From the NCBI GenBank assembly GCA_026394655.1, contig JAPKXU010000059.1, positions 1-40,171 on the forward strand: 40,171 bases of DNA, given 5' to 3'. The translations under genes were made by a program, and so were the position numbers. Positions 2,195-28,812 of the stretch are shown one piece after another. Origin of the DNA: Methanoregula sp. (lineage in GTDB: Archaea; Halobacteriota; Methanomicrobia; Methanomicrobiales; Methanospirillaceae). Under the pieces are notes generated by a model. That model was given only the letters and a program-made list of their open reading frames with translations. It did no database searches and was not told the origin of the DNA. Within the stretch, counting starts at the first letter, position 1; each line of letters opens with the position of its first letter.

Positions 2195-3379
2195 ATGGTC
2201 TCACGAGAACTGGCACACGGAATCTTCTGGGTTGGTGCCCTTGATTTTGACCGGAGGCTTTTTGATGAGTTGATCCCGCTTCCGGAAGGCACCAGCTACA
2301 ATGCGTACCTGATCCGGGGCAGCGAAAAGACAGCACTCATCGATACGGTCGATCCGTCAAAGGAGTTCGAACTGGTCTCAAACCTCGTGAAACTCGGTGT
2401 CGATCGGATCGATTATGTCATCATCAATCACGCAGAGCAGGATCATTCCGGGACACTCCCGATGATCCTTGAATTCTATCCGGATGCGGTTGTAGTCACG
2501 AACGAGAAGTGCAGGGACCTTTTAACTGCCCTGCTCCATTGCCCGCCGGAGACGTTTAAGATCATCAGGGATGGCGATACCCTGTCGCTGGGTGACCGGA
2601 CGCTTGAATTTTTCCTTACCCCGTGGACGCACTGGCCCGAAACCCAGGTCACGTACCTGCGCGAGGACCAGATCCTCTTCTCCTGTGACCTCTTTGGGTT
2701 TCACATGGCAACAAGCGATCTTTTCATCACTGATGAAGCCGCCGCGTACCAGTCCGCCAAACGGTACTACGCGGAGATCATGATGCCATTCCGTGGGAGC
2801 ATCAAAGGGTATGTGGAGCGGGTGAAAGGTCTGCCCCTCTCGATGATCGCACCAAGTCACGGACCGGTCAACCGCCGCCCGGCGCTGATCCTTGATGCCT
2901 ATGCGGACTGGGTCTCGGATGCGGTGAAAAATGAGGTCATCATCCCGTACATCTCGATGCACGGCAGCACCCAAAAGATGGTAGAGCAGCTGACTGATGC
3001 ACTGATTGCACGCGGGATCACGGTCAGACCGTTCAATCTCACCCGTACTGATATCGGGGAACTGGCAAAAGCGCTCGTCGATCCTGCAACTGTCGTGATC
3101 GGAACCCCCACCGTACTCTTCGGTCCGCACCCGCAAGTGGTCTATGCGACATATCTTGCCAACGTGCTCAAACCCAAGTGCCGGTTTGCATCAGTGATCG
3201 GGTCATATGGCTGGGGCGGGAAGGCAGTTGAAACGATCGCAAAGATGCTCGACCATGTGAAGGTCGAACTGATTGAGCCGGTGATGATAAAGGGGCTCCC
3301 GGATGAGGCGACGACAAAAGCGCTCGACCGGCTCGCTGACGATATCTTAAAGAAGCACAAGGAGCTGAACATCACATAA
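2195..3379 (+). CDS. fprA: Flavodiiron protein (F420H2 oxidase / FprA type)
   Basis: A 394-residue cytoplasmic flavodiiron protein. The N-terminal beta-lactamase-fold domain (1-245) holds the diiron ligands: H79-x-E81-x-D83-H84 in the HAEQDH motif, then H146, D165 and H222. The C-terminal flavodoxin domain (about 248-390) starts its FMN phosphate loop at SMHGSTQ (254-260). Family members reduce O2 to water, and some reduce NO; methanogen FprA takes electrons directly from reduced coenzyme F420. The fit in length and ligands is full. Start is ATG 2195, 12 bases after rubredoxin; the desulfoferrodoxin gene follows after 15 bases. Whether this enzyme uses F420H2 or rubredoxin is not visible in the sequence. 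Confidence 0.95.
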   Translation: MVSRELAHGIFWVGALDFDRRLFDELIPLPEGTSYNAYLIRGSEKTALIDTVDPSKEFELVSNLVKLGVDRIDYVIINHAEQDHSGTLPMILEFYPDAVVVTNEKCRDLLTALLHCPPETFKIIRDGDTLSLGDRTLEFFLTPWTHWPETQVTYLREDQILFSCDLFGFHMATSDLFITDEAAAYQSAKRYYAEIMMPFRGSIKGYVERVKGLPLSMIAPSHGPVNRRPALILDAYADWVSDAVKNEVIIPYISMHGSTQKMVEQLTDALIARGITVRPFNLTRTDIGELAKALVDPATVVIGTPTVLFGPHPQVVYATYLANVLKPKCRFASVIGSYGWGGKAVETIAKMLDHVKVELIEPVMIKGLPDEATTKALDRLADDILKKHKELNIT

Positions 3380-3394
3380 GGTGGAGAGGGGAAT

Positions 3395-3775
3395 ATGACT
3401 AAATTGTTTGAAGTTTACAAGTGCAGCGTCTGCGGGAATACCACAAAAGTTGTCCATGCATCCGGGGGCACCCTCGTCTGCTGCGGGCAACCGATGGTAC
3501 TCCAGCCGGAGAAAACTGCCGATGCGGGCAAGGAGAAACACGCCCCGGTTGTTGAAAAGACCGCACAGGGCATCATCGTGAAGATCGGGTCCATCCCTCA
3601 TCCGATGGAGGAGAAGCATTACATCGAGTGGGTAGAAGTGCGAACCGGTGAGCACATTTACATCCGGGGATTTAAGCCCGGCGAGAAGCCGGAATCAGAG
3701 TTCCCCGTCACAGACACGAACGTGAAGGTGCGGATCTACTGCAATGTTCACGGGCTCTGGACGAACAGGGCGTAA
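3395..3775 (+). CDS. dfx: Desulfoferrodoxin (2Fe-superoxide reductase)
   Basis: A 126-residue superoxide reductase of the two-iron class. The N-terminal desulforedoxin-type center I has Cys10, Cys13, Cys29 and Cys30. The C-terminal catalytic center II has His49, His69, His75, Cys116 and His119 (motifs EKHAP, HPMEEKHYIEW and YCNVHGLW), the full set for reducing superoxide to peroxide without making O2. The catalytic Lys lies in the EKHAP loop. A strong ribosome binding site, GGTGGAGAGGGG, sits before ATG 3395. It is the last gene of the rubredoxin-flavodiiron-desulfoferrodoxin operon; a T-run at 3801-3806 lies 25 bases after the stop. Confidence 0.96.
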   Translation: MTKLFEVYKCSVCGNTTKVVHASGGTLVCCGQPMVLQPEKTADAGKEKHAPVVEKTAQGIIVKIGSIPHPMEEKHYIEWVEVRTGEHIYIRGFKPGEKPESEFPVTDTNVKVRIYCNVHGLWTNRA

Positions 3776-5369: not shown

Positions 5370-5380
5370 TAATATAAATT
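5370..5380 (+). promoter_or_regulatory. TATA box for the nitrogenase-like operon
   Basis: TAATATAAATT lies with its centre about 19 bases before ATG 5394 and 25 bases before ATG 5400. No Shine-Dalgarno sequence precedes either ATG, so the operon probably starts with a leaderless transcript. Confidence 0.5.
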
Positions 5381-5393
5381 GCCGTGCCAAAGT

Positions 5394-6212
5394 ATGGTGA
5401 TGAAACAGATCGCCCTGTACGGTAAGGGAGGTATCGGGAAGTCCACGACTTCGGCAAACCTCTCTGCCGCGCTCTCGTTGCAGGGGCTCGATATCCTGCA
5501 GATCGGGTGCGATCCCAAGCGCGACAGCACCCGCATGCTGATGCACGGGAGCTTTATCCCGACGGTGATGGATCTTGTCCGGGAACGTGGCGATGCCGCT
5601 ATCTCTCTTCCCGAGATCGTGTATTCCGGTTTTAACGGTGTCCGCTGCGTGGAAGCCGGGGGACCCGAACCCGGAGTCGGGTGCGCCGGAAGGGGGATCA
5701 TTGCCACGTTCCAGCTGCTCGAAAAGTTCGGGGCGTTGACCGGGGATGTCATCGTGTACGATGTGCTGGGCGATGTGGTATGTGGCGGGTTTGCCATGCC
5801 GATGCGGGAGGGATATGCGCAAGAGATCTACCTTGTTACATCCGGCGAACTCATGTCGCTGTACGCGGCAAACAATATCTGCAAGGCAATAAACCGGCTC
5901 TCCTCACGGGTAAAGAGCAAGTGCCGGCTTGCGGGTGTGATCTGCAACGCGAAGAACCAGCCCCGTGAAGAGGAACTTGTTGCCGAGTTCGCCCGGAGGG
6001 TCAACAGCTCGCTTGTGCAGTTCATCCCCCGCGATCGGGTCGTGCAGGTAGCTGAACTGAACCGCCAGACCGTGATTGAATTTGATCCGGGTTCGGCTCA
6101 GGCTGAGCATTACCGGGTCCTCGCTCGGCGCGTCATGGAGAACACCCGGTTTACGATCCCAACCCCGCTCGAGATCGATGACCTTGAAGCCCTCGCCGTC
6201 GAATTCATGTAG
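5394..6212 (+). CDS. NifH-like ATP-dependent reductase iron protein (nitrogenase-like, group IV type)
   Basis: A 272-residue homologue of nitrogenase iron protein. The P-loop GKGGIGKST (10-18) and the switch-type motif [11 protein letters not shown] (38-48) bind ATP. Cys97 (in GVGCAGRG) and Cys130 (in [11 protein letters not shown]) are the two ligands each subunit gives to the bridging [4Fe-4S] cluster of the homodimer. By family knowledge it passes electrons, with ATP hydrolysis, to its NifD/K-like partners encoded next. Starts ATG 5394 ([13 protein letters not shown]) or 5400 ([11 protein letters not shown]) are both possible; a TATA box just upstream suggests leaderless translation. The 3' end overlaps the next gene by 35 bases. 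CfbC of coenzyme F430 synthesis is the closest characterised alternative, but that works with a single CfbD rather than two NifD/K-like proteins. Confidence 0.88.
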
Positions 6213-7248
6213 GTACGGGGGGTGCACGCTCACCGGGGCACTCTCGGTGACCACCCACGTGCGGGATGCGGTGACCGTCGTGCATGGTTCGAAAGGGTGT
6301 ACCCACCACAACTTTTCGCTTTTGCATGCGACCAGTCTCGACAATGATGTGCCGGTAATCCCCAATCTTGTATCAACCGGGCTTTCAGAGACTGACATTA
6401 TATTTGGCGGCGAACAGGCGCTTGACCGGACTCTCGACTCTGTTTTACGGGATGATCCCGGTGTCGTCTTCGTGCTCTCTACTTGTGTTGTCGATATCAT
6501 TGGAGATGATGTCAGGATGGTATGCGGGAAAGAGCGGGGCGTCCCGGTCATTCCCGTGCCGACAGCGGGATTTCTCGGGGGCACTTTTCAGGATGGCGTG
6601 AACAAAGCCCTCATTGCCCTTGCCGGTATGGCGGAGGGCAGTACTGCAAATAAAGCCAGAACTGTGGACAACAAGGAGAGGGCATCCGTGAATATCATTG
6701 GCGAGAAAAATCTTGAGTTCGAGATTAATGAGAATTATGCCGAAGTAACCCGCCTGCTCTCCTCTATCGGTATCCCGGTGAACATCCGGTTTGTCCATGA
6801 CCTTTCGTCAGCACAGATCCCGTCGCTCGGCGCTGCACGGGTAAACATCCTCCGGGACCCGGCACTGGTTCCAGTCGGGGAATACTTAAAGAAGCGATTT
6901 AAAACCCCGTACATCTCTTCATTTCCCCTTGGTTTATCCGGCACACCCGCATTTATCAAGACTGTGGCGGATGTGTGCGGTGTGGACTGCCGGGATGCCG
7001 TTGCAGAGGAACAGGTATTGCAAGCTGAGACACTTGCCGCATTCGCAGATTTGGAAGGTGCAACCGTCTCGTTTGAGAATGCCCTTGTGGATCCGAGTGC
7101 GGTCCCTGCCGCCAAAAAACTCGCACGGGCGCTGGACCTGCACATCAAAAAGAACGGGCGACCGGTTCCGGTGCCTACAACCCCTCCCATCGGGGTTGCC
7201 GGCACACGACGGATGCTCCACCGCTGGAGGCGTGCGATCCATGCCTGA
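6178..7248 (+). CDS. NifD/NifE-like nitrogenase component 1 homologue, subunit A
   Basis: A 356-residue oxidoreductase of the nitrogenase component 1 superfamily, shorter than true NifD (about 480-550). Cys16 (YGGCTLTGA), Cys41 (HGSKGC) and Cys103 ([12 protein letters not shown]) sit where NifD's P-cluster cysteines do, so an Fe-S cluster at the interface with the next gene product is likely. I see no convincing match to the FeMo-cofactor Cys/His ligands. Start is ATG 6178 ([16 protein letters not shown]), the only ATG close before the first cysteine motif; it overlaps the NifH-like gene by 35 bases, giving tight translational coupling. An upstream in-frame extension would read nonsense inside the NifH-like gene. 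Substrate unknown; it is not standard CfbD. Confidence 0.82.
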
Positions 7249-8374
7249 ATGTACAAATCCCCTCTGGTCGTGTGCCATGACCGGCGCTGCCTCCTGTCTC
7301 GCCGGCTTTCGTGGCTTATCAGTTGTCATTCATGGTTCAAGCGGGTGCTATTATTATCCTGCGACACTGCTGCATGCCCCGCTGCATGGCACGTTCATCA
7401 TGGAGAACGATGTGATCTTCGGCTCGGAAGAACGGTTGAACGAGGTTATACACAGCCTGTCAGGGAACGGCACACGGATTGCGGTGATCACTACGTGTGT
7501 CCCGTCGATTCTTGGCGAGGATATACGGTCGATGCTTGCTGCCCATGATGTCATCCTCGTTGACAGTCCCGGCTTCTCCGGCGATGTGGAGGCAGGATAC
7601 CATATCGCCCTCTCCACGCTCGCACCCTCTGTAGATCCTGACAGCACCGGAGTTAATATCGAGGGAGCGAGCCTCTTTGATCCGTTCGCACGAGGGAACG
7701 TGCAGGAGTGTTCCCGGCTGCTGGACATCGCCGGAGTTCCCAAAGGCACCATATTTTCACAGGACGCGCTTCGTAACGTCTGGCAGGCTGCACCGTATAC
7801 CATCGGGACGAACGAAGATTTCCCGAGCGGCGTCGGCACATACCTTGGCGGCACGCTGGGATTGTCTGAGACACAGACCACGTTTGAGCATATTGCCGAA
7901 GTGTATGACGGTGCAGACATTGAGCCCGTCTGCCGGGAGATTGCCGAAGAGGAAGAGAGGGTCATTTATGCCTGCGACAAGTACCTGCGCCGGTATGATC
8001 CCCCGACGGTTGCGATCTTTGCCGGGGCTTCGTATGCGCAGTTTGCCGCTGAAGTACTGAACCGGTATCTTGATGCCGGGATACTCTTTGTCGGAACACG
8101 AAACGAACCTTCTCCGGTTTCACGGTATCCCACTGCACGCATAGCAGGACTTTCCGAAGCACGGGCATGCATAGAACAACACACGCCGGATCTGGTGATA
8201 GGGTCATCGTTCGAGCGATCGGTTTGTAACGGCAGGGCGTTTGTAGGGATCACGCCTCCACTACGAAGCAGAGTCCGCCTCGTTCACCAACCGCTTGCCG
8301 GTATCGGGGGTACATTGCATTTCACCGAAGAAGTTCTGAATGCCTGCATGGACCGGAAGCCTGCGACACATTGA
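7241..8374 (+). CDS. NifK/NifN-like nitrogenase component 1 homologue, subunit B
   Basis: A 377-residue second member of the nitrogenase component 1 superfamily, partner of the preceding gene. Cys11 (CAMTGAAS), Cys36 (HGSSGC) and Cys86 (ITTCVPSILGEDI) match the three cluster cysteines of subunit A; the Cys11-Cys36 spacing is 25 residues in both proteins. Extra cysteines at 4 and 19 are not in subunit A. The heteromeric arrangement (two non-identical component 1 proteins and one iron protein) resembles Chl/Bch reductases, methylthio-alkane reductase or NifEN rather than CfbCD. Start ATG 7241 has GGAGG ten bases upstream and overlaps the previous stop by eight bases. The substrate is unknown. 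Confidence 0.82.
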   Translation: MPECTNPLWSCAMTGAASCLAGFRGLSVVIHGSSGCYYYPATLLHAPLHGTFIMENDVIFGSEERLNEVIHSLSGNGTRIAVITTCVPSILGEDIRSMLAAHDVILVDSPGFSGDVEAGYHIALSTLAPSVDPDSTGVNIEGASLFDPFARGNVQECSRLLDIAGVPKGTIFSQDALRNVWQAAPYTIGTNEDFPSGVGTYLGGTLGLSETQTTFEHIAEVYDGADIEPVCREIAEEEERVIYACDKYLRRYDPPTVAIFAGASYAQFAAEVLNRYLDAGILFVGTRNEPSPVSRYPTARIAGLSEARACIEQHTPDLVIGSSFERSVCNGRAFVGITPPLRSRVRLVHQPLAGIGGTLHFTEEVLNACMDRKPATH

Positions 8375-8721: not shown

Positions 8722-9141
8722 ATGATGCAAAAAGCAGGATATATACAGCGGACAGGGTGCAGCGCGCTCGATTGCGATGGGATGATGCATGAAGTGATCG
8801 AGATGCATATACTCGGTACCCGGTATGCAATCCGGCTGGCAGCACTGGTGCGAGGAATATCCGGGCATGTATGCATTCAGGTAGAGGCGATCAACCGCGA
8901 ATGGAATAACTACCTTGGAGCAACCTGTGGGCTTGCGCAGGTTTCGGCATCCGGTAAAGCCCTGAACATCGAACTCTTCGGAGCCGGAGACTTCACCGTC
9001 TCGCTTGCCACACTCCGGGCAGTGATCTACAAAAAGCAGCGTCTTGCAGTAGTTGTAAAGATCCCGGAGCAGTCCGTGCAGCCTGCCTGGAGATCGCAAC
9101 GGATTGACGAAAACCAACAGCAGATCAGCGCCGTTGTGTAA
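8722..9141 (+). CDS. Hypothetical protein, 139 residues
   Basis: An unrecognised, probably cytoplasmic protein. It begins with two ATG codons (8722, 8725) preceded by GAAGGTGG, a good ribosome binding site. The N-terminal 25 residues contain Cys13 and Cys18; the centre is beta-rich (MHILGTRYAIRLAALVRGISGHVCIQVEAINREWNNY is split by short turns), and the C-terminus is basic and Gln-rich. There is no signal peptide or membrane segment. Its neighbours are the nitrogenase-like operon 350 bases upstream and a PAS sensor 370 bases downstream, both on the same strand, with no tight coupling. No function is proposed. Confidence 0.6.
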   Translation: MMQKAGYIQRTGCSALDCDGMMHEVIEMHILGTRYAIRLAALVRGISGHVCIQVEAINREWNNYLGATCGLAQVSASGKALNIELFGAGDFTVSLATLRAVIYKKQRLAVVVKIPEQSVQPAWRSQRIDENQQQISAVV

Positions 9142-21841: not shown

Positions 21842-23695
21842 TTATTTCATGAGAATGTTTATAAGCGCTCCTATCAGTAGACCCAGAACGACAGTATATG
21901 CGCAGGCAAAGAACGTGACTTTTGCGCCCATTTGCCGGTAGAGCACCGCAATTGTCGAGACACAGGGGACGAAGAGGACGCTTACGAGTGCAAACGTATA
22001 GAGCTGGACTGAAGTCATCACTGCACCGAGATCGGCGGTGCCGGCAAGTACTGCGAGGGTCTCGAACGCGAGTTCTTTTCTGAAGACCCCGAACAAGAGG
22101 GCGGTCGATGCATATGCCGGGAGACCGAGCAGCGTGACCGTGATCGGGGCAACGAGTTGCTGGAACGCATTAATCCACCCGAAATACTGGAACAGACCGA
22201 GTGCGATGCTCGTCGCGATTAACATCGGCATGGCGATAAAGAGGAATTCCTTGATCCGGAGCCATGACTTTTTTAAGACGAGGAGGGGATGGGGCTTCTT
22301 CAATGGTGCCATCTCTACGATCATGCCGAACTGGTCGCCGGGTGTCATGCGGGAGATGCAGATCGCGGTGAGGATAATCAGGACAAAGATGATAAGGTAA
22401 ATAGAAAATGCCCAGAAAATACCAACAAACACGGCAACGATGCCTGCAATAACGACCGTTCGTGCAGAGCAGGGAACCATGGTGATGAGAAATGCGGCGA
22501 TGGTCTGTTCGCGGCGCGTCTTTAAGATACGCAGGCTCAGGATAGCGGGCACGGTACAGCCAAAACCGATGACCATCGGGATGATCGCCTCGCCATGCAG
22601 TCCGATGCGGTGCATGGCACGGTCAGCAAGAAATGCCGCCCGCGTCATGTAACCCGTATCCTCAATAAGGGAAAGCCCGACGTAAAACGTAAAGACGAAC
22701 GGGAACGCGATTCCAAGCCCGGCTTCCAGCGCGACAAGGACTGAAAATCCGATTCGATCGACTAATGGGGGAAGTCCCAATGCCAGAAACGGGGTGATAA
22801 TGTAGGTGGAGAAGATCTGGACGATCAGCCCCTCCATCCACGAACCGATAACAAAGACCCCCAGTAAGAGCGAGAATAGGATGAGACAGAGCAGGGGGAT
22901 TCCCGGGAATGCACGGGTGAGGATGCGGTCAAGATCAAACTGTTGTCTCTCCGGATTTGTTTTCACCGTCTCGGCAGCAACCCATCTCGCAAAGTTATGG
23001 CGGTTGGTTGCGATGATCTGCCCGACAGACATACGATGACGCTGTTCGATCTCTCCGGCAACGGACAGTGCCGCATCCCGCAGCGCCATGTCATCGCCCC
23101 CTCCCTGGAGTGCCAGGAGGTTCTTGTACCGGGGGGCACCCATCGTCTTTTCAAGTGTTCGGGTTGCCGCTTCAACGTGGTGGTCATATGGGATATGGAG
23201 CGATGATTTTCTGGCGGAGGCGAGAGCGAACGGGAGGATGCGGTCGATATTTTTTCCAATTGAAGCTGCGGTGGGAATTACTTCGATACCGATCAATGCT
23301 GTAAGTCTGCCGGTATCGATGAAGAGCCCGTCACGCTCTGCGTCATCGATCATATTCACGACAACGATCATTGGCAGGGAGTATTCTGCCACTTGTGCGA
23401 GCAGGTACAGGTTCCGCTCAAGTTTCGTGGCATCTAATACGGCGATGATGATGTCTGCGCCCTGTTTCTCAAGGAACCGCCTGACCAGCACCTCTTCTTC
23501 AGAGTTACCATCGAGTGAATAGACCCCGGGGAGATCGATGAGCTCGATCTTCTCTTTCTTATAACAGACGTTCCCGCATTCGAGGGTTACCGTGGAGCCC
23601 GGGTACTTGTTCACCTCCACGCCAAGACCAGTCAGCTGGTTAAAGATCAGGGATTTCCCGACTCCCGGATTACCGAGCAGTGCGATCTTTGTCAT
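21842..23695 (-). CDS. feoB: Ferrous iron transporter FeoB
   Basis: A 617-residue inner-membrane Fe(II) transporter. The N-terminal G-domain has G1 GNPGVGKS (8-15), G3 DLPG (about 54-57) and G4 NMID. The membrane part carries the two gate motifs, FGCTVPAILSLRIL and MVPCSARTVVIAG, and the GVFRKELAFE loop. It is shorter than E. coli FeoB (773) but normal for archaeal forms. I start it at ATG 23695 (MTKIALLGNPG), which overlaps the regulator gene stop by four bases; a longer upstream frame has no family match. FeoA is supplied as the C-terminal domain of the preceding gene product. Fe-dependent repression by that protein is inferred. Confidence 0.95.
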   Translation of the reverse strand: MTKIALLGNPGVGKSLIFNQLTGLGVEVNKYPGSTVTLECGNVCYKKEKIELIDLPGVYSLDGNSEEEVLVRRFLEKQGADIIIAVLDATKLERNLYLLAQVAEYSLPMIVVVNMIDDAERDGLFIDTGRLTALIGIEVIPTAASIGKNIDRILPFALASARKSSLHIPYDHHVEAATRTLEKTMGAPRYKNLLALQGGGDDMALRDAALSVAGEIEQRHRMSVGQIIATNRHNFARWVAAETVKTNPERQQFDLDRILTRAFPGIPLLCLILFSLLLGVFVIGSWMEGLIVQIFSTYIITPFLALGLPPLVDRIGFSVLVALEAGLGIAFPFVFTFYVGLSLIEDTGYMTRAAFLADRAMHRIGLHGEAIIPMVIGFGCTVPAILSLRILKTRREQTIAAFLITMVPCSARTVVIAGIVAVFVGIFWAFSIYLIIFVLIILTAICISRMTPGDQFGMIVEMAPLKKPHPLLVLKKSWLRIKEFLFIAMPMLIATSIALGLFQYFGWINAFQQLVAPITVTLLGLPAYASTALLFGVFRKELAFETLAVLAGTADLGAVMTSVQLYTFALVSVLFVPCVSTIAVLYRQMGAKVTFFACAYTVVLGLLIGALINILMK

Positions 23696-24348
23696 GAACG
23701 CTCCACTGAGATTGCGGATGCGATCTCCGGGCTCAGTGCAACATCGCACCCTTTCACTTGTATTACGAACGACCGGTTGGAGAGCTTCCGTTTTATTGAC
23801 AATTTCTGACCGGGGACTACCCCAAGGTCAAGAAGACGTTTTGCGCAGGATTTCCCCGAGATAGAAGAGACCACGACCCGGTCTCCCTCATCACAGTCTG
23901 CGAGCGTGCGGGAGAACTCCTGTATCCCGGTTTCTACGCAGGATGGGTTGTACACCGAGGTATCTCCGCTATTCGTCCCTGCAGGAATATGGAGATAATT
24001 CCCGAGCCGGTCGATAGTCTCGTCCGATACAGCATGCTCGATTTTGCAGGCTTCACTGGAAGCCTGTGACGAATCCATCCCAAGAATTTCCGTGAGGAAG
24101 CACTGGAGGGTTTCATGTTTTTTTATCACACGCTGCCCTGTCTCTTTCCCCGTCTCGCTGAGCCTGACCGTACCATCACCCGGTAAGATGACATCTCCTG
24201 TAGTGGCAAGTTCGGAGAGTTGGGAGACGACCTCAGGTTCTGGGAGGTGCATGGCGGCGGCGACTTCTTTAATGGTAGGGAGTGCAGGATGCCGCCGGGC
24301 AATGAGAAGAATTGCCTCGAGGTAGTCTTCGCGCAGGGATGCGTGCAT
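23692..24348 (-). CDS. DtxR/MntR-family metalloregulator with C-terminal FeoA domain
   Basis: A 218-residue iron- or manganese-dependent repressor. Residues 1-65 are a winged helix (SLREDYLEAILLIARR; LPTIKEVAAAMHLPEPEV), 66-130 the metal-binding and dimerisation region (GQRVIKKHETLQCFLTEILG; ACKIEHAVSDETIDRL), and about 143-218 an SH3-like FeoA domain (DEGDRVVVSSISGKS; LGVVPGQKL). I start at ATG 24348 (MHASLREDY), in line with family N-termini; ATG 24387 would add 13 residues. It overlaps feoB by four bases, so it probably both represses the operon and supplies the FeoA function. I could not find a convincing operator palindrome upstream. Confidence 0.9.
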   Translation of the reverse strand: MHASLREDYLEAILLIARRHPALPTIKEVAAAMHLPEPEVVSQLSELATTGDVILPGDGTVRLSETGKETGQRVIKKHETLQCFLTEILGMDSSQASSEACKIEHAVSDETIDRLGNYLHIPAGTNSGDTSVYNPSCVETGIQEFSRTLADCDEGDRVVVSSISGKSCAKRLLDLGVVPGQKLSIKRKLSNRSFVIQVKGCDVALSPEIASAISVERS

Positions 24349-24644
24349 ACGTCTTACCTTATCTGGGTGCAGGAACAGTTTATTCATTTGGGTTGGGGAT
24401 AGAATCTGACTTGGTACCTGCGGGTGCACAACCGCCAGTACATCAACTCCTGCAATATCTGGTCCTGTTCCCAATGGGTTGCCGAATGTTACTCCCACGT
24501 AAATGAAAAATTGGGATGTCCGTGTGCCACATGCACAGAAACAGGAGAATTCCGGCAAAATCATCCCTCTCTCAAAAAGACGAGTTTTCATGATGATGAC
24601 GAGTCCTAATCCTCTTATCCTTGGCACACGAAAAAGAATACAGG
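24349..24644. other. Divergent intergenic region between the dtxR-feoA gene and the UppS-like gene
   Basis: About 296 bases that must hold the promoter and any operator of the iron operon on the minus strand and the promoter of the UppS-like gene on the plus strand. A/T-rich stretches at about 24381-24390 and 24500-24512 are TATA candidates. No clear inverted repeat was found. Minus-strand frames through here are open but show no family signature. Confidence 0.35.
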
Positions 24645-25286
24645 ATGATCTACTGGCTCTATGAACAGATGCTCCTTCGGCAAATCCAGATGGTGCCACG
24701 GCAGGTCTGTATCATGATCAGCGGTGCAGATATGGCTGTCGCGCCAGAGAAGATGGTTCAGATTACCGGGTGGTGTAATGAACTCTCCGGGCTGCCCACA
24801 AAGACAGGCACAGATGGATCATCAACAGGAAATCAATCGATCCAGAGGTTGACATTCCACATCAATCCTCTCACATCTGATGAGATGGTGCAGTACTTGC
24901 CGGAGATACGGAAGATATCCCGTATTGCCCGGCTCGTCCTCCATTATGGGGATACTGAAGAAGTGTCAGGTACTGGCATGGAGGTCGTGGTTGCAATCGG
25001 GAAGAGCGGGCGTGAGGAGATTACTGCATGCATCCGCCGGTTGGCAGAAGACGGAATCCCGCCACAGGAGATCGATGAGAAGGTGCTGGAATCGCACCTG
25101 ACCTTCAAGTATGACCCGGACATTGTGATCAAGAGCGGCGGTGACCACCTGACCGATTTTTTAATCTGGCAATCGGTCTATTCCGAGCTCTTCTTCTCGG
25201 ATGTAAACTGGAGATATTTCCGAAAGCTTGACTTTTTACGGGTGTTGCGAGACTACCAGTCACGGATGCGCAGGTTCGGGAAGTAA
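24645..25286 (+). CDS. Divergent cis-prenyltransferase homologue lacking catalytic residues (probable partner subunit)
   Basis: A 213-residue relative of undecaprenyl diphosphate synthase. The C-terminal half is clear: DPDIVIKSGGDHLTDFLIWQ (158-177) and SELFFSDVNW (180-189) match the family IPP-binding region, and the N-terminus (LYEQMLLRQI) matches the canonical UppS 1.5 kb away. But the catalytic D-G-N-R-R loop reads SGADM (26-30), the FSTEN motif is absent, and the IPP-binding Arg/Arg/Ser are replaced by Lys163, Leu169 and Asp171. So it is probably not active alone; it may pair with the catalytic subunit, as NgBR/Nus1 does in eukaryotes. Start ATG 24645 is preferred over TTG 24621. Confidence 0.8.
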   Translation: MIYWLYEQMLLRQIQMVPRQVCIMISGADMAVAPEKMVQITGWCNELSGLPTKTGTDGSSTGNQSIQRLTFHINPLTSDEMVQYLPEIRKISRIARLVLHYGDTEEVSGTGMEVVVAIGKSGREEITACIRRLAEDGIPPQEIDEKVLESHLTFKYDPDIVIKSGGDHLTDFLIWQSVYSELFFSDVNWRYFRKLDFLRVLRDYQSRMRRFGK

Positions 25287-26064: not shown

Positions 26065-26847
26065 TCAGCCGGTATGTGTTCCATTGGCTTTCGTTGTGAT
26101 CCGCTGGTCATAGATCCGGATGGCGCGGAGCAGGTCAATCTTCCTGAAGAGCGGCCAGTACGGTGCACAGAAATAGACCGCTGACTCATGACCGTTCGCG
26201 AGCCACGGCAGGAAATTGGAGGTTCGGTACTCGTTGCCGGTCCTGATGATCAGGTCGACCGGCGGGATACCCTTACCTCCGTACAAATGATCTTCCACCA
26301 TCCGGACATCGATATCACTCGGTGTAATCTCCCCTTTCTGAACTCCTGTCACAATATCCCGTGCAGCAAGCACGATCTCATTTCTGCCGCCATACGCGAG
26401 AGCGATGTTCAGCGTGAAACCGGTATAGTCTTTTGTTGCCGCTTCTGCTGCCTCAACCGCGGATCTCAGGTCACCGGGTAAAAGCAAGCGGTCACCCATC
26501 ATCTGCACCCGGATTTTATACCTGTGCACCCGTTCATCGGTGATGACCGAGAGGAACTTCTCTTTAAAGATCGCGAACAGGTTTTGTATTTCATCTGTTT
26601 TCCTGCCGAAGTTCTCTGTAGAAAAGGTATAGAGCGTCACGTGTTTGATGCCAAGTTCATGAGCCCAGTCCAGCATCTCCTCAGTCTTGTCCGCGCCAGC
26701 ACGGTGCCCGCGTGCAATATCGATACCCATCTGCCGGGCGAATCGTCGGTTGCCATCCTGGATAATGGCGACATGGTATGGCATATGCAGGCACTGCATC
26801 GTCAGGTACCATTCATAGAGTGGTTCAAGCAGGTTGCGGAGGGTCAC
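26065..26847 (-). CDS. uppS: cis-Prenyltransferase (undecaprenyl/dolichyl diphosphate synthase, catalytic)
   Basis: A 260-residue soluble or membrane-associated enzyme that adds isopentenyl units in cis to make the polyprenyl carrier for glycosylation. The catalytic loop DGNRRFAR starts at Asp31; YTFSTENFGR, ALAYGGRNEI and the IPP-binding DLIIRTGNEYRTSNF (about 203-217) are intact. The first 25 residues match the divergent homologue at 24645. Start GTG 26847 overlaps the radical SAM stop by four bases (GTGA); ATG codons further in would cut off the N-terminal helix. In archaea the product is a dolichol-like carrier for N-glycans; chain length is not predictable. Confidence 0.94.
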   Translation of the reverse strand: MTLRNLLEPLYEWYLTMQCLHMPYHVAIIQDGNRRFARQMGIDIARGHRAGADKTEEMLDWAHELGIKHVTLYTFSTENFGRKTDEIQNLFAIFKEKFLSVITDERVHRYKIRVQMMGDRLLLPGDLRSAVEAAEAATKDYTGFTLNIALAYGGRNEIVLAARDIVTGVQKGEITPSDIDVRMVEDHLYGGKGIPPVDLIIRTGNEYRTSNFLPWLANGHESAVYFCAPYWPLFRKIDLLRAIRIYDQRITTKANGTHTG

Positions 26848-27836
26848 TGGGGTGTCACCTCAACGACCATGCCCCCGTTCGGGTAACGTTCGACAACATA
26901 TTTCTTACCGGGAATTTTTCCTGCATCGCTAGTGAGCAGCCACCATGCCATCTCAATCCGGTCACCGCAGTCAATAAAACTATCAGCATCCAGTTTTTTT
27001 GTGCAGAGTGCGCTGACTTCGTCACGTGTGCCCGGGTACAGTTCCAGCACGCCATAGACTACCGTCCCGTCATCGGTGATCTCATCAAACGGGCGTGCCG
27101 TGTTCTCTGCGATCCGTTTCAACCGTTCCCGGAGCTGCACCGAGTCTTTGAATGACGAAGCGCACCAGTGCACTTTCTTATCTTTTACGAGTTCGTCTGC
27201 CCATTCCCGTGCGCCGCTGACCGCGTTATGCACGCCGTCCGCGAGCTCGAATCCCCGCTCCCGCATCTCGTCAGCATTGGTCTCCCCCCATTCAAGCTCG
27301 TTGATATTCAGGAAGTCCAGGTACGGCAGTGCGGGGATGAGCAGTTCGAGCCCGGGCAGTGCAGGGACTTCGATGCCAATGTCGAACCCCATCTTCTTCG
27401 CTTGTTGTGCGGAACGGATATACGGTGTATCAAGAATAGTGTCCCAGCATTCACGCGGCGGGTGCAGGCGGATCTCATCGACCAGCCCGTTCATCTGCGC
27501 CAGTTCTGCATCGGTGGGAGCCCGTGCGGTATAGAGATGGATGTGGTGGGTCTGCCCGAAATGCTCCTTCAACAGTTTCGCGTATGTAATGACCCTGTCG
27601 AGGCAGAGGAGCGGTTCTCCGCCGGTGATCCCGGTGCCGAGCGCACTCATGCTCTCCGCCATATCGATGACCTGATCGGGAGAGTTGATCTGCCGCTCGT
27701 TTGCGAAGACGACGTCGTTTCCTTTGCGTTCGCTTGAGAGCGGACAGTACCAGCAGGAGCGGTGGCAGCGTCCCGTCACAAAGAGCACCATCTTCGCGCC
27801 CTGGTAGCAGAGAACACAACCTTTTGAAAGTGTCAT
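26844..27836 (-). CDS. Radical SAM protein (COG2108-type, PflA-related)
   Basis: A 330-residue radical SAM protein. Cys24, Cys28 and Cys31 (GRCHRSCWYCPLS) form the CxxxCxxC site for the [4Fe-4S] cluster, and GITGGEPLLCLDR (about 69-81) is the SAM-binding GGEP motif. Cys7 and Cys10 and further cysteines (208, 268, 281 regions) could hold an extra cluster but no regular motif is seen. The C-terminal ~80 residues are a separate alpha/beta segment typical of this archaeal family. The substrate is unknown; the family is conserved in euryarchaea. It is the first gene of the minus-strand unit with uppS (four-base overlap). Confidence 0.88.
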   Translation of the reverse strand: MTLSKGCVLCYQGAKMVLFVTGRCHRSCWYCPLSSERKGNDVVFANERQINSPDQVIDMAESMSALGTGITGGEPLLCLDRVITYAKLLKEHFGQTHHIHLYTARAPTDAELAQMNGLVDEIRLHPPRECWDTILDTPYIRSAQQAKKMGFDIGIEVPALPGLELLIPALPYLDFLNINELEWGETNADEMRERGFELADGVHNAVSGAREWADELVKDKKVHWCASSFKDSVQLRERLKRIAENTARPFDEITDDGTVVYGVLELYPGTRDEVSALCTKKLDADSFIDCGDRIEMAWWLLTSDAGKIPGKKYVVERYPNGGMVVEVTPQ

Positions 27837-27943: not shown

Positions 27944-28390
27944 TTATCTCTTTATGTGCAGAGTCGGCAGCACCGCCTCAATCTCCGCAGTGAACTGAAG
28001 AAAATCCCCGCTATTCTCTTTTAGCAACTGGAATGCAAGCGCATCGTCAATCTTCCCATACCGGTGTACAACGATGTTCCGGAACCCTCTCATACCATGA
28101 ATCTTCTCAAGCATTGCCAGAGTGATGATCCCCTTGTCGATACAATGCAGAAGGATATCTTCATCCTCACCGGGAACACCAAGCGCGAGATCGGCATTTA
28201 GGATAGCACAAATATCGAAGACATCCTCAATTGCAAATTCAATCCGCTTGTAGATCCCATCTTTGACGAGACCAAGATTCTGGAATTCTTCCGCACTTTT
28301 GGGTAATGCCTCCTGCACAAGCGAGACTCCCTCGACAATCTCTTGTAACTTTATACGGATTGTCGTTTCCCGCACTGGTTTTGTCTTCAT
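27944..28390 (-). CDS. hepT: HepT-like HEPN ribonuclease toxin (DUF86)
   Basis: A 148-residue HEPN-family protein, the toxin of a type VII-class HepT/MntA system. The RNase motif R-x4-H-x-Y is present as Arg104, His109 and Tyr111 (RNIVVHRY). The helical bundle includes RIEFAIEDVFDICAILNADLALG (split by its helix turn) and LAMLEKIHGMRGF. Known HepT proteins cleave RNA or tRNA unless AMPylated at the Tyr by MntA. It follows the MntA-like gene with a four-base overlap. Both key residues are intact, so it is probably active. Confidence 0.9.
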   Translation of the reverse strand: MKTKPVRETTIRIKLQEIVEGVSLVQEALPKSAEEFQNLGLVKDGIYKRIEFAIEDVFDICAILNADLALGVPGEDEDILLHCIDKGIITLAMLEKIHGMRGFRNIVVHRYGKIDDALAFQLLKENSGDFLQFTAEIEAVLPTLHIKR

Positions 28391-28812
28391 CGTATCGGTA
28401 CCTGACCAGTGTAATCGTATAAACGGTGTTTGAAGTCGTCAAACTCGATGATGGTCTCTGTCGCTTTGTCATACAGGAACCTGGTGTCACGGGTGTATAC
28501 CGGGATACCTTTGAGTGCTTCGACTCTTACGTAAAGGGGGAGTTGTTGGAAGATCTGGATGTCAAAGAGTGTACCGGGAAGCAGGGAGAGGACTTTGTGG
28601 CGGAAACGTGCTGCATCATCGCGACCGCCTTCATAATACATGCAGAGATCAATATCAGATGAAGGAGTCATCCGTTCTTCCAAAGCCGAACCATAAAGGA
28701 TGATGAACTGCACATGGCGAAATTCCGGGCACTTCTGCATTAGTCTTGTGGCAGCTGCTACAGCGTCGGGGATCGACCTTCTCGTAATACGGGATATCTT
28801 ACCATGTGGCAC
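28387..28812 (-). CDS. mntA: MntA-like minimal nucleotidyltransferase antitoxin
   Basis: A 141-residue nucleotidyltransferase of the MNT family. The G-S-x10-D-x-D catalytic motif is exact: Gly41-Ser42, then Asp53 and Asp55 (YGSALEER ... SSDIDL). In characterised pairs the enzyme adds AMP groups to the HepT tyrosine and so blocks the toxin. The C-terminus (VRVEALKGIPVYTRD; YDKATETIIEFDDF) is typical of HepT-linked MNT proteins. GTG 28812 is the first in-frame start after an upstream stop. It overlaps hepT by four bases. Confidence 0.88.
   Translation of the reverse strand: MPHGKISRITRRSIPDAVAAATRLMQKCPEFRHVQFIILYGSALEERMTPSSDIDLCMYYEGGRDDAARFRHKVLSLLPGTLFDIQIFQQLPLYVRVEALKGIPVYTRDTRFLYDKATETIIEFDDFKHRLYDYTGQVPIR

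Follow-up and report, generated by a model that had tools for sequence, protein, structure and literature searches.

The iron protein gene of F430 synthesis shares an operon with an apparently undescribed two-part nitrogenase-like enzyme in Methanomicrobiales

Introduction

In recent accounts, the nitrogenase-like enzymes of group IV come in two arrangements: HDK gene sets with a radical-SAM gene, or the iron protein CfbC with a homodimeric CfbD. The HDK sets include the sulfur-scavenging reductases Mar, Isr, and Nfa (PMC11423573). For the F430 step, CfbC and CfbD suffice in vitro (PMC7242693). Also, the activation complex of MCR carries L-cluster-like centers, and NifB is probably involved (PMC12176620).

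We analyzed a stretch of 40,171 nucleotides from Methanoregula sp. (contig JAPKXU010000059.1; "the window"). The source genome is a draft of 2.26 Mb and is 82% complete. The window contains three overlapping genes, which we call H, A, and B. In nearly all Methanomicrobiales, the iron protein gene of F430 synthesis (H) shares its operon with the genes of a nitrogenase-like enzyme that has two parts (A/B). We did not find a description of this pair in the literature. A/B is real, occurs order-wide, and is apparently a new variant among the nitrogenase-like enzymes, with an iron protein in common with F430 synthesis. If an order-wide heteromer does rely on CfbC, it would be a further branch of group IV, one that bears on the origin of heteromeric nitrogenases from CfbD-like ancestors and on the extra reductive chemistry of a major group of methane producers. 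It also cautions against taking the nifH-like gene of these methanogens, which belongs to F430 synthesis, for a marker of nitrogen fixation.

An operon of three overlapping genes

All three reading frames are open, on the forward strand: H at 5400-6212, A at 6178-7248, and B at 7241-8374. As first annotated, H and A overlap by 35 bases (6178-6212) and A and B by 8 bases (7241-7248). Both overlaps recur in many relatives, across families, with 35-41 bases for H/A in most of them. The 8-base overlap suggests translational coupling. The sizes of A (356 amino acids) and B (377 amino acids) were also borne out. The initial annotation began H at 5394, which gave 272 amino acids, but the conserved start is the ATG at 5400 (the residues there are invariant in an alignment of 23 orthologs), for a protein of 270 amino acids. 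About 25 bases before this ATG, the sequence taatataaat (5370-5379) resembles a TATA box. Its position suggests that the transcript may be short or leaderless.

In Pfam, H matches PF00142 (E = 4.6e-107), while A and B match PF00148 (E = 1.4e-55 and 2.5e-38), so the three-gene set is not a chance observation. Relative to a genus-mate, substitutions at codon positions 1/2/3 number 31/19/113 in H, 86/60/191 in A, and 88/74/223 in B. For A, dN/dS is about 0.16 (Nei-Gojobori), with dS near saturation. Judging from these substitutions, all three genes are under purifying selection. An in-frame stop was flagged in some matches to B; in the one we examined (G245), it is the terminal stop. One Methanoregula-like genome (G026) has two copies of H-A-B, on contigs C28 and C32.

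H matches the iron protein for F430 synthesis

H scores 410.1 bits against the NCBIfam model for CfbC (NF033200), which has a cut-off of 402. It contains the Walker motif and the 4Fe-4S cysteines (Cys97 and Cys130, numbered from 5394), and these are invariant across the 23 aligned orthologs. Among the Methanomicrobiales genomes listed, the best match to CfbC is the H-type protein in every case.

The gene content of the relatives also bears on the role of H. In 19 Methanomicrobiales genomes that are at least 95% complete, a single NifH-like protein is encoded (PF00142, E below 1e-50), and it adjoins A. In all 19 of these genomes, cfbD is elsewhere and has no cfbC beside it. (In Methanosarcinales and Methanocellales, cfbC directly adjoins cfbD.) With no other NifH-like protein to act on a distant cfbD product, H would have to serve CfbD too. 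The source genome has its cfbD on a different contig, where the neighbor is a cfbE-like gene and again not a cfbC. The only other NifH-like gene found in this genome is of a different type and scores 326.8 bits against the CfbC cut-off of 402, but because this genome is incomplete, the argument from a single iron protein rests on the relatives. From its profile score and genomic context, we take H to be the working CfbC in these organisms. One electron donor, CfbC, probably feeds two different reductases in Methanomicrobiales.

The initial annotation held that CfbCD does not fit this operon. That is correct for A and B, which fall outside CfbD (see below), but not for H, which is above the CfbC cut-off (410 vs. 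402). The annotation also proposed looking elsewhere for a cfbC/cfbD pair, and it would have been refuted if the genes clustered with CfbCD and the genome had no further copy of cfbCD. Half of that objection holds: there is no second cfbC in the 19 near-complete relatives, yet a separate cfbD is present and A/B lie outside CfbD. Because H is the organism's CfbC, it cannot be assigned to A/B alone.

In a tree of iron proteins, H is weakly nearer to NifH and is not sister to canonical CfbC. A tree constrained to hold H with canonical CfbC is not rejected (AU test, p = 0.435). H may be a CfbC that moved to this locus, or it may be another iron protein that took the place of CfbC. As for the second NifH-like protein of the source genome (C111:111-1031; L002), its P-loop reads GKGGIVKST, with a valine replacing a glycine, which could be a sequencing error. 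In relatives, this type of protein pairs with D/K-like genes (L247 and L248).

A and B are component 1 subunits outside the known families

A and B both belong to nitrogenase-like component 1 (PF00148) by profile and by fold. Comparisons to profiles of PDB entries indicate that A is of the D/E type (its best match is NifE) and that B is of the K/N type, with matches to NifK/AnfK at its N and C termini. The AlphaFold models are confident, with pLDDTs of 87.5 for A and 91.1 for B; the closest folds are NifE and BchB for A and VnfK, NifN, and AnfK for B. When placed in a tree alongside CfbD, NifD/K/E/N, and further nitrogenase-like proteins from the phylum, A and B each form a separate and supported deep clade. 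These clades and the profile scores below agree with the original claim that component 1 is heteromeric here and distinct from both CfbD and NifDK/EN.

Together, A and B keep all six of the P-cluster cysteine positions, at the residues first noted: Cys16, Cys41, and Cys103 in A, which are invariant across 28 sequences, and Cys11, Cys36, and Cys86 in B. (Of the latter three, Cys36 and Cys86 do not vary among 27 B sequences, and Cys11 is conserved at 90% or above.) Conservation of these six residues is not proof of a P-cluster, since they might hold a 4Fe-4S cluster instead. At the position of NifD Cys275 or NifE Cys250, every A sequence has an arginine (Arg226). Also, A is truncated in its C-terminal domain, where NifD has His442, and has lost most of it, whereas B has its C-terminal domain. 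The shortened domain could give A a non-catalytic role. Without the Cys275 ligand and the His442 domain, A/B would be an electron relay that lacks FeMoco or an L-cluster and binds its substrate directly. The other invariant arginines are Arg204 in A and Arg287 and Arg342 in B, and the four would suit an anionic substrate.

We compared A/B to the described systems on these features. CfbCD is similar in that H is a functional CfbC, the component 1 subunits are short and of similar length, and there are no FeMoco ligands. But CfbD is homodimeric, keeps two of the three cysteines at P-cluster positions in each subunit, and is encoded elsewhere, while A/B is heteromeric, has three plus three cysteines, and forms separate clades. 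Against the CfbD model (TIGR03282), A and B score just 39.9 and 41.7 bits, far under the cut-off of 268.4, so we rejected this assignment. NifDK and NifEN share with A/B the pairing of D/E and K/N subunits, the six P-cluster cysteine positions, and the fold. However, A is truncated, the scores are far under the Nif cut-offs, and there are no nifB or nifI neighbors. (Among those proteins of the window that were scanned with Pfam, we found no NifB, NifI, or NifEN, in line with the initial annotation; the sole radical-SAM protein found, at 26844-27836, is not NifB.) Despite the six cysteines, A/B is not NifDK, as the FeMoco ligands Cys275 and His442 are missing. Nor is it NifEN: the best NCBIfam matches of A and B are to nifE, but far below the cut-off (131.3 vs. 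505.1 bits), and the L-cluster ligand, NifE Cys250, is replaced by arginine.

DPOR (BchLNB) and COR (BchXYZ) resemble A/B in fold and, presumably, in direct substrate binding without a cofactor. The ligation pattern of DPOR is three cysteines and one aspartate, instead of the three plus three cysteines of A/B, and A/B is shorter and was found only in methanogens among the genomes sampled. By its ligation pattern, A/B is not DPOR. Mar, Isr, and Nfa share the HDK gene order, but here there is no radical-SAM B gene near, the iron protein is CfbC, and the cofactor cysteine is absent, so these are disfavored.

We also considered Mlab_1040/1039 from Methanocorpusculum labreanum (Dos Santos 2012) as the same pair. 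These have two plus one cysteines and lie by an ABC transporter, so they are probably a different system.

Outside its own orthologs, A matches best (E about 1e-54) to the D part of a fused NifH-NifD protein from Methanosarcina-like and Methanospirillum-like genomes, which is followed by a NifK-like gene (L249, 4236-7708 on the reverse strand; L245, 4494-7948; also L250, L251, and L253). The fused system differs from A/B in its fused iron protein, its pattern of three cysteines plus aspartate, the ABC importer and CbiK near it in some genomes, and its separate clades. Its D part keeps three P-cluster cysteines, while its K part has aspartate and proline at two of three positions, so the pattern is like the three cysteines and one aspartate of DPOR. 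Its neighbors are a BtuC/FecCD-type importer in L245, and in L249 an ABC ATPase together with a CbiK cobalt chelatase, suggesting a tetrapyrrole or corrinoid reductase.

A and B are nearly universal in Methanomicrobiales but can be lost

In a sample of 392 Halobacteriota genomes, only Methanomicrobiales have orthologs of A (E about 1e-107 or better). After these, the best matches are the fused NifH-NifD proteins and then NifE-type proteins. Across 107 near-complete Methanomicrobiales genomes, A was found in 99, B in 100, and both together in 99. Seven genomes lack both, and six of these are from one genus, probably Methanospirillum. The eighth genome lacks A alone and is a draft in 310 contigs. 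In the three A/B-less genomes that we examined, H is at the same locus and a CfbD-type protein is present, so A/B is not required for F430. A/B is an addition that can be lost without losing the F430 genes.

Directly downstream of the operon, the window encodes a protein of 139 amino acids with no assigned function (8722-9141). In the A/B-less genomes examined, a homolog of about 140 amino acids directly follows H.

What A and B might do

Our preferred explanation, in which we have moderate confidence, is that the operon encodes CfbC and a second client for it, A/B, with a P-cluster-type relay and no FeMoco-type cofactor, and that CfbC also serves CfbD. A and B would form a NifDK-like heteromer, probably A2B2. 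A CfbC dimer in its reduced form would bind where A and B meet and hydrolyze ATP, and single electrons would pass to a P-cluster-type iron-sulfur center held by three cysteines from A and three from B. The substrate would sit directly in the interdomain cavity, as in DPOR and CfbD, and would be reduced by this center without FeMoco or an L-cluster. The same CfbC would serve the homodimeric CfbD encoded elsewhere. It is quite conceivable, although we would not bet on it, that this is a Methanomicrobiales-specific enzyme of the nitrogenase superfamily, in which CfbC drives both CfbD and A/B and the A/B reaction is not yet known in biology. We are more tentative about the substrate, which might be a carboxylate-rich anionic organic molecule, perhaps a tetrapyrrole. 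A tetrapyrrole is the most economical guess because the donor is common to CfbD and because the cofactor-less relatives (DPOR and CfbD) act on tetrapyrroles. The initial annotation had offered a tetrapyrrole-like reductase, a new activity, or a methylthio-alkane-reductase-like enzyme; the first two are still candidates, and the third is disfavored by the missing Cys275 ligand and the lack of a radical-SAM B gene nearby.

Might A/B instead be an accessory or tailoring enzyme for F430, which assists CfbD or takes the reduction of F430 or an intermediate a step further, so that Methanomicrobiales have their own form of the cofactor? A/B shares the iron protein of F430 synthesis and its operon, is conserved across the order, and has four invariant arginines that would suit a carboxylate-rich tetrapyrrole. 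But cfbD is not adjacent to A/B, CfbC and CfbD are enough in vitro (PMC7242693), and the seven genomes without A/B, with H and a CfbD-type protein retained in the three examined, show that A/B is not needed for basic F430 synthesis. We consider this role unlikely. That NifE is the best profile match of A, along with the L-cluster-like centers and the probable involvement of NifB in MCR activation (PMC12176620), raises another idea: A/B could be a NifEN-like scaffold that brings the 8Fe-9S-C cluster made by NifB to the activation complex. This seems very unlikely, as an invariant arginine replaces the L-cluster cysteine of NifE, the domain beside that site is mostly gone from A, A/B is missing from seven Methanomicrobiales genomes, and none was found in the other Halobacteriota sampled.

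A sulfur-scavenging reductase like Mar, Isr, or Nfa is less probable still. Group IV enzymes of this kind do exist, with the same HDK gene order (PMC11423573), but their sets include a radical-SAM B gene, which is not near this operon, A lacks the cofactor cysteine (at the Cys275 position), and no sulfur genes are consistently linked to the operon across six families. Least credible of all is that A/B replaces the cobalt-precorrin-6A reductase CbiJ in cobalamin synthesis. Ring reduction is the chemistry of this fold in DPOR, and we found no CbiJ (PF02571) in any of 45 Halobacteriota methanogen genomes, including Methanosarcina-like ones. However, Methanospirillum-like and Methanosarcina-like genomes without A/B also lack CbiJ. 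CbiJ is missing with or without A/B, so A/B does not track the gap.

Other genes near the operon

Across the six families, the conserved neighbors of the operon are TrkH, a PRK-type kinase, an FprA-like flavoprotein, IPMDH/aconitase, and ABC transporters. This synteny gave no clue to a functional partner or substrate. Upstream of the operon in the window, an FprA-like flavodiiron protein is followed by a desulfoferrodoxin, forming an oxygen-detoxification pair (2195-3775). On the reverse strand, the window also has an iron-uptake cluster, with FeoB and an iron-dependent repressor that is fused to FeoA (21842-24699), and a toxin-antitoxin pair of the HepT/MntA type, with a HepT-like nuclease and a nucleotidyltransferase (27944-28812).
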